From Sulfobacillus benefaciens (GTDB taxonomy: Bacteria; Bacillota; Sulfobacillia; Sulfobacillales; Sulfobacillaceae): a stretch of DNA of 64,000 nt. This document shows positions 5,238 to 64,000 of the stretch, in pieces (within the stretch, counting starts at the first letter, position 1; each line of letters opens with the position of its first letter). The translations under genes were made by a program, and so were the position numbers. The stretch lies in the NCBI GenBank assembly GCA_003023695.1, contig PXYW01000004.1, positions 14,613 to 78,612 on the forward strand. The letters run 5' to 3'. The notes under the pieces are model-generated. The model saw only the letters and a program-made list of their open reading frames with translations. It ran no database searches and was not told where the DNA came from.

Positions 5238-5713
5238 AGGCAGGCCAAGTTCCCTGACGAATCACATCATAATTTAGATTTAAGCAATCTGGGCCAATGC
5301 GGTCATAGCGACGAGGATGGACTTTACCTTTTGGAATTCGTGGACCGTCCCGGGCGCCAGTCCCCCAATGATAGAGCAAGAACTAAGAACACTTCAAATC
5401 CTCGACATTTCCCGCCATAGCGCGTGCTAAAGGGTAGAAATCCGCTTGCGATGATGATTCCTTGTCACCATATTATCCAAGCCCAGGAAGATTTCGGGGA
5501 CCCGGATCGAAAACGCGCTCTTTGAACCCGAAACGAAGGCGGCATTAGCAACAATCTCGTCGAAACGTCAAAGTTTTGTTATCATAATAGCACTGTTTAA
5601 TGGTATCCGGGTTGAGACATGGAGTGCCCGGGCGCCGAACGCGTCCGGGTCGTTTTGCGACATTTTACGGAGCAAACCCCCCGGCAAAATCGCGAAGACA
5701 AAGGGGATAATCC
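5238..5713. other. Non-coding gap before glpP
   Basis: About 475 bases without a convincing gene. Short open frames on both strands have no ribosome site or recognisable motif. The right third holds a possible -10 (CATAAT at 5583-5588) and a GC-rich hairpin (5627-5649). The rest shows nothing I can name; it may contain decayed coding sequence. Confidence 0.4.
5627..5656 (+). terminator. Leader hairpin with T-run upstream of glpP
   Basis: CCCGGGCGC (5627-5635) pairs with GCGTCCGGG (5641-5649) around a 5-base loop, followed by TCGTTTT. It lies 58 bases before the glpP ATG. Its preceding GGAGTG motif recurs next to the glpA leader terminator (minus strand near 15764-15770), so both may be GlpP-dependent antitermination targets; that link is inferred. 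Confidence 0.4.
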
Positions 5714-6283
5714 ATGAACGACAGCAATCTCGCACTGCCACCTGTGATTCCAGCACTTCGATCCCTGGATCTGTGGCAAGAGGTCCATATAAAAACTGGT
5801 CCTAACGTGGTGTTTATCCTGGGGGGCAGCATCAACACCGTGGCAGAACCGGTGGCTTTACTGGAACGACGGGGTTGGCGGGTGTTTTTACATGTCGATA
5901 TGCTAAAAGGACTAACCACCGATGCCGATGGGCTAAGATTTTTAGCCGATTATGTGGGACCCGCTGGAATCATTAGTACCCATGCCCATACTATTCAAAC
6001 GGCGAAAAAAAATAATTTGATTGCCATCCAACGTCTTTTCGTCGTAGATAGCCAATCTGTCGAAACAGGCATTAATCAGGCGCGCACCGCCAAGCCCGAC
6101 GCCGTGGAACTCATGCCTGGCCTCATTCCTCAAGCCATTAGACAAATATCCCATCAATTATCTTGCCCCGTGATTGCTGGCGGATTAGTCACGGACAAAG
6201 AGCATGTACGCCAGGCATTAGCCGCGGGCGCTTGCAGTGTTTCTACCAGCAACGCCCAATTGTGGCAGTGGGACATCGGCTAA
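5714..6283 (+). CDS. glpP: Glycerol-3-phosphate-responsive antiterminator
   Basis: 189-residue GlpP family protein, a TIM-barrel-like RNA-binding regulator. In Bacillus subtilis GlpP with glycerol-3-phosphate lets transcription read through leader terminators of the glp genes. Matching segments: VVFILGGSINTV near residue 32, VFLHVDMLKGLTTD, GIISTHAHTIQTAKK, AIQRLFVVDSQSVETG, DAVELMPGLIP and PVIAGGLVTDKEHV. AAAGGGG precedes the ATG by 8 bases. It is separated from glpK by a thioesterase and from glpABC by several unrelated genes, so the regulon is scattered. A candidate leader terminator lies before glpABC and another before glpP itself. Confidence 0.93.
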   Translation: MNDSNLALPPVIPALRSLDLWQEVHIKTGPNVVFILGGSINTVAEPVALLERRGWRVFLHVDMLKGLTTDADGLRFLADYVGPAGIISTHAHTIQTAKKNNLIAIQRLFVVDSQSVETGINQARTAKPDAVELMPGLIPQAIRQISHQLSCPVIAGGLVTDKEHVRQALAAGACSVSTSNAQLWQWDIG

Positions 6284-42226: not shown

Positions 42227-43440
42227 ACCCTATTTTAATGGGTTCCCCAAGAGATCTTTTTACCCTTAAGACTCAGACTCCGCATGTCACCAAATGGAAA
42301 TTACCATAGTAGATATTCTGGGCAGCCAGCAATCCCCGTCTCAACATCGTGTCTCGCCAGAGAGCAGACGTGCGCTATTATCATGTATTGTTTCCGCAAT
42401 CATTGCACCCCTTGTGCACCATCCGACCTGGCAATAGCTCGATATAGTCGTTCCTGCGGGATTCGCGTGGCGCGCTATCAGTGAGCAATGGAATGTAGTG
42501 AGCTTGCAAGTTTATCCCTTATTGGATAATTAGCTCACTGAGCATCTGAGCAACCATGATCATATAGACGGATGAAAGCAGATTTATCGGCCCATGAAAG
42601 ACTTTACCCAAAGTGGAAAATTTTGGCCGTGATTCGGCTTACATGTGTACTTTTGGCCTATAAGTGCTTTACGGCAACCTTTGAGGACGACTGAACGGGG
42701 CTCGTGTAGCGCTATAATTGGCCAACTATTGGTTTATTTCGTGGCCAACAATTGGCTAAAGTCACACCATTGATTCATGAGATTGGTTGGGTGTGCCGAA
42801 CGGTGCTGCAGTGGCGCAGTCATCAACACTTTCATCAGCACGAGCGAGACGAAGCTATATGCACAGTGTTCTCCATGGATGCCGAATCCGCATTTTCCAG
42901 AATACCCAAAACGTCTCAGATGTATTCAGGCGCGCCGCCGTCGCTTGGACGGGGGGTTCACTAGAAAGAAAGAGCAGGCACTGGAGGAAGAAGTAGTATC
43001 CCGAAATATTAGGGATTACTTGTTCGTGTCTTAAGTCACACTGCAAAACACTCTACAGCCTTGCTGGTATCCAAATCGGGTGCATTCCGTTGTAAAATCC
43101 GCTGCCCGTCCCATGACAACCGCAGAACGGTTCGGTTGGCCTTGAATGCGGCGTCACCATGAAGCCATGGAATAGGTGTTTTGGAGCCACAGCGTAGATG
43201 CGAAGAAGTGCTGACTTCGTTTCTGTACGAGGGTTCCAGCGCATCGGGGCAACCCCATAGACGCCTGAGTGCGGTTCTTCTAATCCCGGCCGAATCCTTC
43301 CGGGGACACCAAATTATTTGTGGCCCCACAAGGGTTTCCGGGTTTTCACCGTTGCCAACGCAGACGGTGATTTTTATTTTGTGTGCCTATAGTGTGCCGT
43401 TTCCAAACAGGAGGCTTTCGGGTTTTCTCGTAGCCTGCTG
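42227..43440. other. Gene-poor region with mobile-element remains
   Basis: About 1.2 kb with no gene I can support. It holds AGTGGAAAATTTTGGCCG and later GTACTTTTGGCC (about 42610-42660), which recall repeats at IS21-type ends; a near-direct repeat GGCCAACTATTGG/GGCCAACAATTGG (42721-42757); and a T-rich hairpin (43353-43385). Short open frames here lack ribosome sites and familiar motifs. Confidence 0.45.
43353..43385 (+). terminator. Terminator-like hairpin in the mobile remnant region
   Basis: TCACCGT and ACGGTGA flank a 9-to-10-base loop, followed by TTTTTATTTT. No gene directly upstream is recognisable. Confidence 0.4.
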
Positions 43441-43590
43441 TTACAACGTCGGCAACACATGACTGTAGGTGTCTAGGGTGAGAGTAATACTCGCATGTCC
43501 GAGTCGTTCACTGACCACCTTGGGGTTTTCGCCTGCCACTAGGAGCAATATGGCACGCGTATGACGCTTATGTAGCCGGTAGCATAAGCG
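43441..43590 (-). pseudogene. Tyrosine recombinase (integrase) C-terminal remnant
   Basis: Minus strand, ending at TAA 43441-43443. It reads HKRHTRAILLLVAGENPK, then VVSERLGHASITLTLDTYSH, matching the phage-integrase catalytic end: RHT box, LGH and the Tyr nucleophile. The HDLRHT box is one residue short (LHKRHT), and no upstream catalytic domain is present, so it is a fragment. A 12-bp perfect inverted repeat (ATGACGCTTATG, 43561-43594) lies over its upstream edge. Confidence 0.75.
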
Positions 43591-43701
43591 TCATTATGGG
43601 TCGACCACGGTTATGCGAAGTCACCCCCAGAGTAGCGCAATATAGAAAGGCTTCCACCCAATATCCTGTCACATAATGTTCAACGGCAAAGGTTTTCTAG
43701 C

Positions 43702-43832
43702 GTAACCGTCAAATCTTACCCACATTCCATTCGGCGCGGTGGCACGGCATACTCGGGTTAACACCCCGAGTAAAGGAGTGAACTGCCGATGACGACTACG
43801 GAACGTGAAACGCTTCAACAGGTCTGGAATGC
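43702..43832 (+). repeat. Left copy of long inverted repeat
   Basis: Aligns with the complement of 45034-45164 with about eight mismatches in the inner 125 bases (43708-43832). Contains CTCGGG/CCCGAG dyad, AAAGGAG and a start codon followed by the codons for MTTTERETLQQVW. Confidence 0.85.
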
Positions 43833-43896
43833 ACGCATACAGGAATTTCGCTCAGCCGACGGTATCACACGAAGAGTACCTGTGTCAGCGATTTGA
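43789..43896 (+). pseudogene. Truncated IS66 TnpA-like ORF, left copy
   Basis: 35 residues: MTTTERETLQQVWNARIQEF then RSADGITRRVPVSAI and a stop. The pattern W-x-x-R-x-x-x-FR recalls the N-terminus of IS66 accessory protein TnpA (OrfA). AAAGGAG sits 10 bases before the ATG. It has no further domain, so it is treated as a remnant; the similarity is by eye. Confidence 0.4.
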
Positions 43897-44186
43897 GACT
43901 TACGCCACCATAGCACGTTCGGGGTGTTGCGGCGGTGAAAGCCGGCTGGGTTAGCACAGGTCTTGCGGACCGGCACAGCGCATCATCAAGTCCTCCCCCA
44001 TACCCATATGCGCTATGACGAACGGTTGTCGCCATGCGACACATCGACCCCAGGTATATCCGCGAACATGGAAGAGGTTCAAAGACGCAGCCATGTCGGT
44101 TTACGAAACGAACCCTCCCCAATCTATGAGGGTCATAGAGAACCTTTCCATGGGCACGTCACGCGCCATCGTCGCGCCTCATTCCT

Positions 44187-44804
44187 TCAATGTGTGTTGC
44201 CGGACCGCGCTCCGAGCGAAATCCCTAGGATGATGTGATAAATCTCGGCGGGATAAAAAGCTCCGTCCATGAGCGCAACGAGCCCCGTCGTGGGAAACGC
44301 TAACATATCTTCATAGAATTGGGCAACCCACGCGTGAACCCAAGGATTGGAGAACGCTGCGCCGATGAAAACCCAGTAGCCCAATGCGGTGAGCACGCGA
44401 CTGGGTAGCGTCCAGCTTCGGCTCAATTGGCGCCCAAGGGCACTGAAGGTCACCCACGCCACCACCATGGCCATCGTGGCCACGATGGCCGCGGTGAAAG
44501 GCGCCAGAGGATGCACAGGAAGCCCACCCCGAATAAACACGCCGCCGGCGCTCGCAATGGCCGTGATCCAACTGGTTGCGAGCAAGGCCGTCGCGATAAC
44601 GCCCACCATCACCATGGTACCGGTCTTCCAAAGGATGCTCGCAACCGGGACCGCCAGACACGCGACGCCGAGTGACCACCAGAATAGTGGGTCCCAAAAA
44701 AATCCCGTCTCGGGAATGGTGACGACGACCGTCGCGGTGCCGGCGGCGACAATCGCCAATAAAATCGCCGTTGCCACGATGACCGTGAGAATATAACGGT
44801 GCAT
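44187..44804 (-). CDS. Hypothetical polytopic membrane protein (element cargo)
   Basis: 205 residues with five or six hydrophobic segments, starting MHRYILTVIVATAILLAIVA; a large share of Ala/Val/Thr. I do not recognise the family. It follows the 83-residue gene by about 21 bases and is read from the right end of the inverted-repeat element, so it is probably cargo expressed from the element end. The coding sequence is richer in G+C than the flanking chromosome, which suggests transfer. An upstream in-frame start at 44813 is possible. Confidence 0.6.
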   Translation of the reverse strand: MHRYILTVIVATAILLAIVAAGTATVVVTIPETGFFWDPLFWWSLGVACLAVPVASILWKTGTMVMVGVIATALLATSWITAIASAGGVFIRGGLPVHPLAPFTAAIVATMAMVVAWVTFSALGRQLSRSWTLPSRVLTALGYWVFIGAAFSNPWVHAWVAQFYEDMLAFPTTGLVALMDGAFYPAEIYHIILGISLGARSGNTH

Positions 44805-44825
44805 CTCACGCACCCCCCCAGAATC

Positions 44826-45077
44826 CTAACGCCGGGAGACCTGGCGGTGCCACGACGCCAACCATCCGCGCGTATCCGATCCCACGGCGGTCTGAACACT
44901 CTCTCGCCTCGCCTCCTCAACTTCTATCCGCGACTGGGCGAACCCCTTGCGCATCATGCCCCACCTCTCCTTTATCGAAACCCCGGCCCAAAAGCCGACA
45001 GCCAGCGATGTTTGGTAATCGAAATAGTTTTGAGCATACCATACCTGTTGAAGCGTTTCACGTTCCGTAGTCGTCAT
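44826..45077 (-). CDS. Small hypothetical protein sharing its N-terminus with the inverted copy
   Basis: 83 residues. The first 13 (MTTTERETLQQVW) and the ribosome site AAAGGAG are identical to those of the inverted copy at 43789, after which the two differ completely. The rest (SIKERWGMMRKGFAQ, SRIEVEEARRES) is charged and may be helical. It looks like a TnpA-type start fused to other coding sequence. Upstream partner of the membrane protein gene. Confidence 0.55.
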   Translation of the reverse strand: MTTTERETLQQVWYAQNYFDYQTSLAVGFWAGVSIKERWGMMRKGFAQSRIEVEEARRESVQTAVGSDTRGWLASWHRQVSRR

Positions 45078-45164
45078 CGGTATTTCACTCCTTTACTCGG
45101 TGTGGTAACCCGAGTATGCCTTGCAACCGCGCCGAATGGAATGTGGGTAAGATTTGACGCTTAC
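45034..45164 (-). repeat. Right copy of long inverted repeat
   Basis: Complement of the left copy. Begins GTAAGCGTCAAATC at 45164 and ends within codon 15 of the 83-residue gene; the dyad in this copy is CTCGG/CCGAG. Confidence 0.85.
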
Positions 45165-45214
45165 CCATCAACGCACGATCAGGATGTGGAATCAGGCCCA
45201 TTTGACGCATTTGT

Positions 45215-45511
45215 CACAATCTAACTTTGCCGAAGACCTACCACGTGCTGCTACTGGCCTTGCAGTTCGCCCGCTTCATGCGGGCGATGGTCCGCGACGC
45301 CCTCCACGATTAGCCGCTCAAGATCCCGCATCGGACGGTCCAACGCCCGTCCGATGCCGTAATTTTAGATGCCTTACGCCCGCTCTGGGTCCTCCGCAAA
45401 GAGGATGGTGCGGCCGTCTGGTACCAATGGGCCGAGTGCCACGCCCGTCGCATTCTCGAGGCGCTACAAATCCCCGTCACGCGACGGTTGGTCTGGGAAC
45501 CGTCCGGTTAG
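45215..45511 (+). pseudogene. Decayed coding fragment
   Basis: One frame reads TYHVLLLALQFARFMRAMVR, then an in-frame TAG near 45314, then SDAVILDALRPLWVLRKEDG and AVWYQWAECHARRILEALQ up to TAG at 45509. It has protein-like composition on both sides of the internal stop but no family I know. High G+C like the adjacent element. Confidence 0.4.
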
Positions 45512-45741
45512 GGTCGGAAAAATTCCCCAAAACGCCCTGCACTGGCAGGCGGAAGCTGAGGTAAGAGATATTGGGTATCCGTATTTCATGATTGATCGGC
45601 CGTTGTGCCTCCCTGAATGAACCGAGTTCTTTTCCGTCGATCGAAGTCATCTGTAAGCCGCGGCACAACCAGTCAAATGTGATTGTGCGGATGTCTTGTG
45701 CTTAGCCCGCTAACGCCCCCTTTAGCTGAAGAAGGACGTCC

Positions 45742-63874: not shown

Positions 63875-63902
63875 TTGGCATTGGTTAGATGTCGTTTACA
63901 AT
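63875..63902 (+). promoter_or_regulatory. Promoter of the riboswitch transcript
   Basis: TTGGCA (63875-63880), a 16-base spacer, TACAAT (63897-63902), just before the riboswitch core. Confidence 0.6.
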
Positions 63903-63907
63903 AAAAA

Positions 63908-64000
63908 AGCAAACCTGTGCGAAAGGCAGGGACGCAAAGCCACGGGCCTACAGTTAATTTTTCACGTAACTATGGCAGCCGGGTTGCCGGAGCTGGTTCC
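63908..64000 (+). ncRNA. c-di-GMP-I (GEMM) riboswitch, cut by window edge
   Basis: GCAAACCTGTGCGAAAGGCA followed by GGGACGCAAAGCC and GGGCCTACAGTT, then AACTATGGCAGCCGGGTTGCC. The GCAAACC, a GAAA tetraloop arm with CCTG/CAGG, GGACGCAAAGCC and the tetraloop receptor arm (GGCCTA ... TATGGCAGCCGGGTTGCCGG) are the conserved parts of the class I aptamer. The controlled gene lies beyond the window. Confidence 0.92.

Follow-up and report, generated by a model that had tools for sequence, protein, structure and literature searches.

The inverted repeats and their reading frames

The window, that is, the whole stretch of 64,000 nucleotides of Sulfobacillus benefaciens DNA that was analysed, contains two inverted arms of 131 nt each (43702–43832 and 45034–45164), which in a repeat search of the window were 93% complementary with a spacing of 1201 nt. 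The likeness of the two arms is far beyond chance. Both show the tip GTAA.CGTCAAATCTTACCC, the left one with one substitution (GTAACCG versus GTAAGCG), and in each arm a ribosome site (AAAGGAGTGA) lies upstream of an ATG, with 13 identical first codons, MTTTERETLQQVW. The frame that starts in the left arm reaches a stop after 35 codons, and the one that starts in the right arm forms an ORF of 83 aa (45077–44826, minus strand), followed 12 nt further on by a 208-aa membrane-protein ORF (44813–44187, minus strand). An earlier note on this DNA had described these repeats, with their ribosome sites and shared codons, and the frames that follow them; all of these were confirmed. The features of the region are the following:

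43149–43311, plus strand: diverged copy of a family-wide repeat of approx. 173 nt that ends in a tRNA-Arg-like 3' half, belonging to the mosaic that flanks the unit; 76% to an intact copy
43562–43701, no strand assigned: left target, in which the left IS66 end interrupts, at 43701, the last part of a tyrosine-recombinase cassette whose recombinase gene is on the minus strand; empty sites in genomes G030, G016 (two contigs) and G022
43702–43851, plus strand: left arm, a truncated IS66 left end (left terminal repeat IRL, leader, ribosome site and the first ~20 tnpA codons); 90–93% to the IS66 left ends on contigs C170, C99 and C46 and in relatives
43789–43896, plus strand: 35-codon ORF, a tnpA start reading into non-IS sequence up to a stop
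44027–44977, minus strand: interior, non-IS66 DNA, including non-coding DNA on both sides of the membrane gene; 70–77% alike to single loci in four relatives
44187–44813, minus strand: conserved membrane-protein gene, truncated here, 208 aa versus 238 aa in G006 and G015; deletion of ~46–49 nt at 44211/44212
44826–45077, minus strand: 83-codon ORF, read from tblastn and an alignment to G015 as 15 tnpA codons fused to intergenic DNA
45034–45164, minus strand: right arm, a truncated IS66 left end with its tip pointing right; identity of 97.7% with the C99 copy and of 93.1% with the left arm
45165–45242, no strand assigned: right target, a repeat that has nothing in common with the left target and is found uninterrupted in G022 and G030

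Origin of the arms

Elements of the IS66 family carry the genes tnpA, tnpB and tnpC (the DDE transposase), and have left and right terminal repeats of approx. 20–35 bp. Further copies of the arm sequence are present in the same genome on contigs C170, C99 and C46, to which the arms are 90–98% identical, and there is a diverged copy on C68. The C170 copy opens an IS66 element, with the terminal repeat, the leader, a full tnpA of 103 aa and the first part of tnpB; its TnpA matches the NCBIfam family NF047593 (E=1e-18), and the arms are homologous to this real IS66 left end with tnpA. The assignment of the repeats to IS66, and of the shared codons to a TnpA start, had been made in the earlier note and proved to be right. 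In the left arm the IS66 homology goes beyond the 131-nt repeat and extends to 43851, 150 nt in total. On the other hand, the IS66 right end found on C125 has its tip, GTAAGCGTCAAATAATCCCC, 29 nt past the end of the tnpC frame, and shows no homology to the 131-nt leader; this genuine right end shares with the arms just the tip of ~20 nt. From this common tip, C125 and C170 presumably belong to the same IS, of which the genome has no complete assembled copy. Because the left end with tnpA on C170 matches the arms, and the right end on C125 does not have the 131-nt leader, both arms are left ends, and not a left and right pair; the IS from which they come is a resident IS66-family element of this genome. 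No IS66 right end was detected near the arms; in this part of the window, nothing but the tips of the two left ends comes close to the C125 tip. Likewise, the set of tnpA, tnpB and tnpC is absent from the unit, which has only the first ~15–20 codons of tnpA in each arm, and the matches to tnpB and tnpC in its own genome lie on other contigs. A TnpA scan of genome contigs returned only MAGs labelled Bacillota bacterium, apparently with the same copies as in G001, G004 and G033.

The right arm is closer to the C99 copy than to the left arm (97.7% versus 93.1% identity); between the left arm and C99 the identity is 93.9%. In a tree of 131 columns the right arm pairs with C99 and not with the left arm (bootstrap 75), which, the arms being short, is moderate evidence for two separate insertions. 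Among the copies examined, the longest exact runs are of 38 nt between the arms, 60 nt between the left arm and C46, and 70 nt between the right arm and C99. Other IS66 left ends were found whose likeness stops at ~50 nt (G012), ~165 nt (G004), ~191 nt (C99) and 350 nt (G004); left ends cut short in this way, after 50 to 350 bp, are common in this lineage, with the caveat that some truncated copies end at contig ends, so that their length is not biological.

The DNA between the arms

The interior (44027–44977) is collinear with single loci in G004, G006, G015 and G026, with 70–77% identity over the parts that each of them shares, and the match reaches non-coding DNA, which lies on the downstream side of the gene in G004 and on its upstream side in G015. 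No IS66 tips were found near the matching loci of these four genomes. The inner junctions, 43852–44026 and 44978–45033, have no identified relative. The deletion at 44211/44212 shifts the frame of the membrane gene and replaces its C-terminus (SLG-ARSGNTH and a stop); this gene is broken or shortened in G026 and G004 too, and is therefore dispensable. Neither the 83-aa nor the 208-aa ORF matched a family in Pfam or NCBIfam. Regarding the former, residues 16–83 have no relative by tblastn in the fetched loci, and the alignment of its DNA to intergenic sequence of G015 needs about five single-base indels over 158 nt; by these two results, the ORF is intergenic readthrough from a tnpA start, and not a gene or a conserved protein.

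Target sites and surroundings

The two flanks lead to different sites. The left empty site is uninterrupted in G030, G016 (two contigs) and G022, where GGTTTTCTAGC is joined directly to CACGCCATGAG, with close variants; in G030 and G022 an intact tyrosine-recombinase gene ends at this target, and three such genes lie in a row in G030. The segment 43562–43701 is the remnant of the end of a RIT-like cassette of three consecutive tyrosine recombinase genes, which is intact in G030 (L089:288–2999). The missing half of the left target is absent from the window, and the rest of the genome has no match to it at the insertion point; the sole trace there, on contig C8, is a 75% match to sequence from within the recombinase gene. 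The right flank past 45164 runs leftward into other sequence in G022 and G030, on other contigs (CCGGT..CC joined to CCATCAAAG), and the continuations of the left and right sites bear no resemblance to each other, and the flanks do not join. An empty-locus comparison from the acyl-CoA dehydrogenase gene to the FabF-like gene was uninformative, since within the genus each side finds its match in another genome and on another contig. No 8-bp target duplication was found beside the tips (TTTCTAGC versus CCATCAAC), and IS66 elements produce target duplications of 8 bp (table in PMC3281130). Given the separate empty sites and the differing bases that flank the tips, the simple insertion of one unit does not account for the pair of tips.

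The surroundings (43149–45725) are a patchwork of further repeats. At its end, the repeat of ~173 nt resembles the 3' half of a tRNA-Arg(UCU), CCA included, and it has intact copies, e.g., at L097:1803–1974 and 5664–5836; genomes throughout the family contain many copies of it, with several per contig a few kb apart (G004 C55, G006 C12, G030 C192). Neither ARAGORN nor Rfam gave a call for this tRNA-Arg-like repeat; tyrosine-recombinase elements may reuse it as an attachment site. Other dispersed repeats (45246–45560 and 45571–45725) are present in several genomes of the family, the first being probably the remnant of a transposase C-terminus. Two riboswitches were also recorded, a c-di-GMP-I riboswitch at 63898–63991 of the window (RF01051, 78 bits) and an FMN riboswitch at L097:7265–7411 in the related genome G004 (RF00050, 84 bits).

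Origin of the unit and competing explanations

The unit is best explained as two decayed IS66 left ends that flank a fragment of a decayed chromosomal gene, i.e., a genomic scar and not a working mini-transposon or a switch, a reading to which we assign a probability of about 0.83. Two resident copies of the IS66 family, of slightly different lineages, would have entered sites that have nothing to do with each other: the first close to where a tyrosine-recombinase gene ends, the second within a dispersed repeat. Everything distal in each copy (the remainder of tnpA, then tnpB and tnpC, and the right end) would later have disappeared, presumably by deletion, leaving solo left ends of 150 and 131 nt; a deletion or rearrangement would finally have placed these left ends, facing outward, around a decayed segment that was formerly a chromosomal gene. 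The order of these events is likewise our reconstruction. The possibility that two elements recombined, offered in the earlier note as an alternative, comes close to the evidence when the two elements are taken as remnants of two copies. Most likely the unit has no function of its own, and transcripts started from the IS leader, if any, would carry non-functional ORFs.

The main claim of the earlier note, a mini-element whose ends drive captured cargo, is not supported, in view of the unrelated flanks, the lack of a duplication and of a second copy, the readthrough nature of the 83-codon ORF and the frameshift of the membrane gene. One version of it, which we regard as improbable, is a non-autonomous transposon derived from IS66 and bounded by two left ends: it would have picked up a chromosomal gene, moved by means of an IS66 transposase acting in trans, and later lost a flank through an adjacent deletion. 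The outer tips are indeed near-intact, save for the substitution on the left, and face outward, fragments of IS66 transposase are present in the genome, and an adjacent deletion promoted by the IS and starting exactly at the tip would likewise give unrelated flanks and no duplication; families other than IS66 do move DNA between two miniature ends (PMC4133298). Nevertheless, the arms are not the closest copies of each other, the cargo gene is broken, the arm-interior-arm unit occurs once among 61 genomes (none in the 60 related ones) and is absent from 72,556 plasmids, and it has two left ends, whereas the IS66 of this genome uses a left and a different right end. Less probable still is that a transposase-free element with two IS66 left ends once moved as a unit and afterwards lost its flank by adjacent deletion; if true, such a unit would show that the IS66 transposase can use two left ends.

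An assembly chimera, in which two loci were joined through IS66 repeats, has in its favour that the assembly is a draft (179 contigs, 3.8% contamination), that IS66 left ends are numerous and that the contigs of some relatives break in this repeat. Given that exact matches between the copies compared do not exceed 70 nt, such a chimera is very unlikely; in addition, the inner junctions sit where the IS66 homology ends, and not within a shared exact repeat. Furthest from the evidence is an inversion switch, also suggested in the earlier note, in which recombination between the arms would flip the interior and so exchange the ORFs behind the two tnpA starts. Recombination at a low frequency could take place between inverted repeats of this length (131 nt) and likeness (93%), but the exact run common to the arms is 38 nt at most, no invertase gene or site that pairs with the arms was found, the only adjoining recombinase sequence being a remnant, and the ORFs to be swapped are readthrough or frameshifted, so neither orientation yields an intact conserved protein; we give this scenario hardly any credence. 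As biology, the scar carries little weight; it is an ordinary mosaic of IS decay. It is a clean example of two decaying IS copies that imitate a cargo transposon, and the imitation was exposed by two tests, namely whether each flank has an empty site of its own and which copies each arm most resembles.

Comparison with known systems

Mobile insertion cassettes and MITE-bounded composites (TIME-COMP, PMC4133298) resemble this unit in that transposase-free DNA lies between inverted IS-derived ends. Such elements are recognized by a unit present at more than one place, or by an empty site across the whole unit; here there is one copy, with a separate empty site per flank. The unit also differs from them in its lack of a target duplication, in arms that come from two lineages, in the absence of a right end, both of its ends being left ones, and in its broken cargo. 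The comparison with the IS66 family (tnpA-tnpB-tnpC) is closer for the arms than for the whole. An IS66 element has a left and a right terminal repeat at its two ends, plus tnpB and tnpC, and these genes and the right end are missing here; each arm is a fragment of 131–150 nt in which the terminal repeat, the leader and the tnpA start are 90–98% identical to the IS66 left ends of its own genome.
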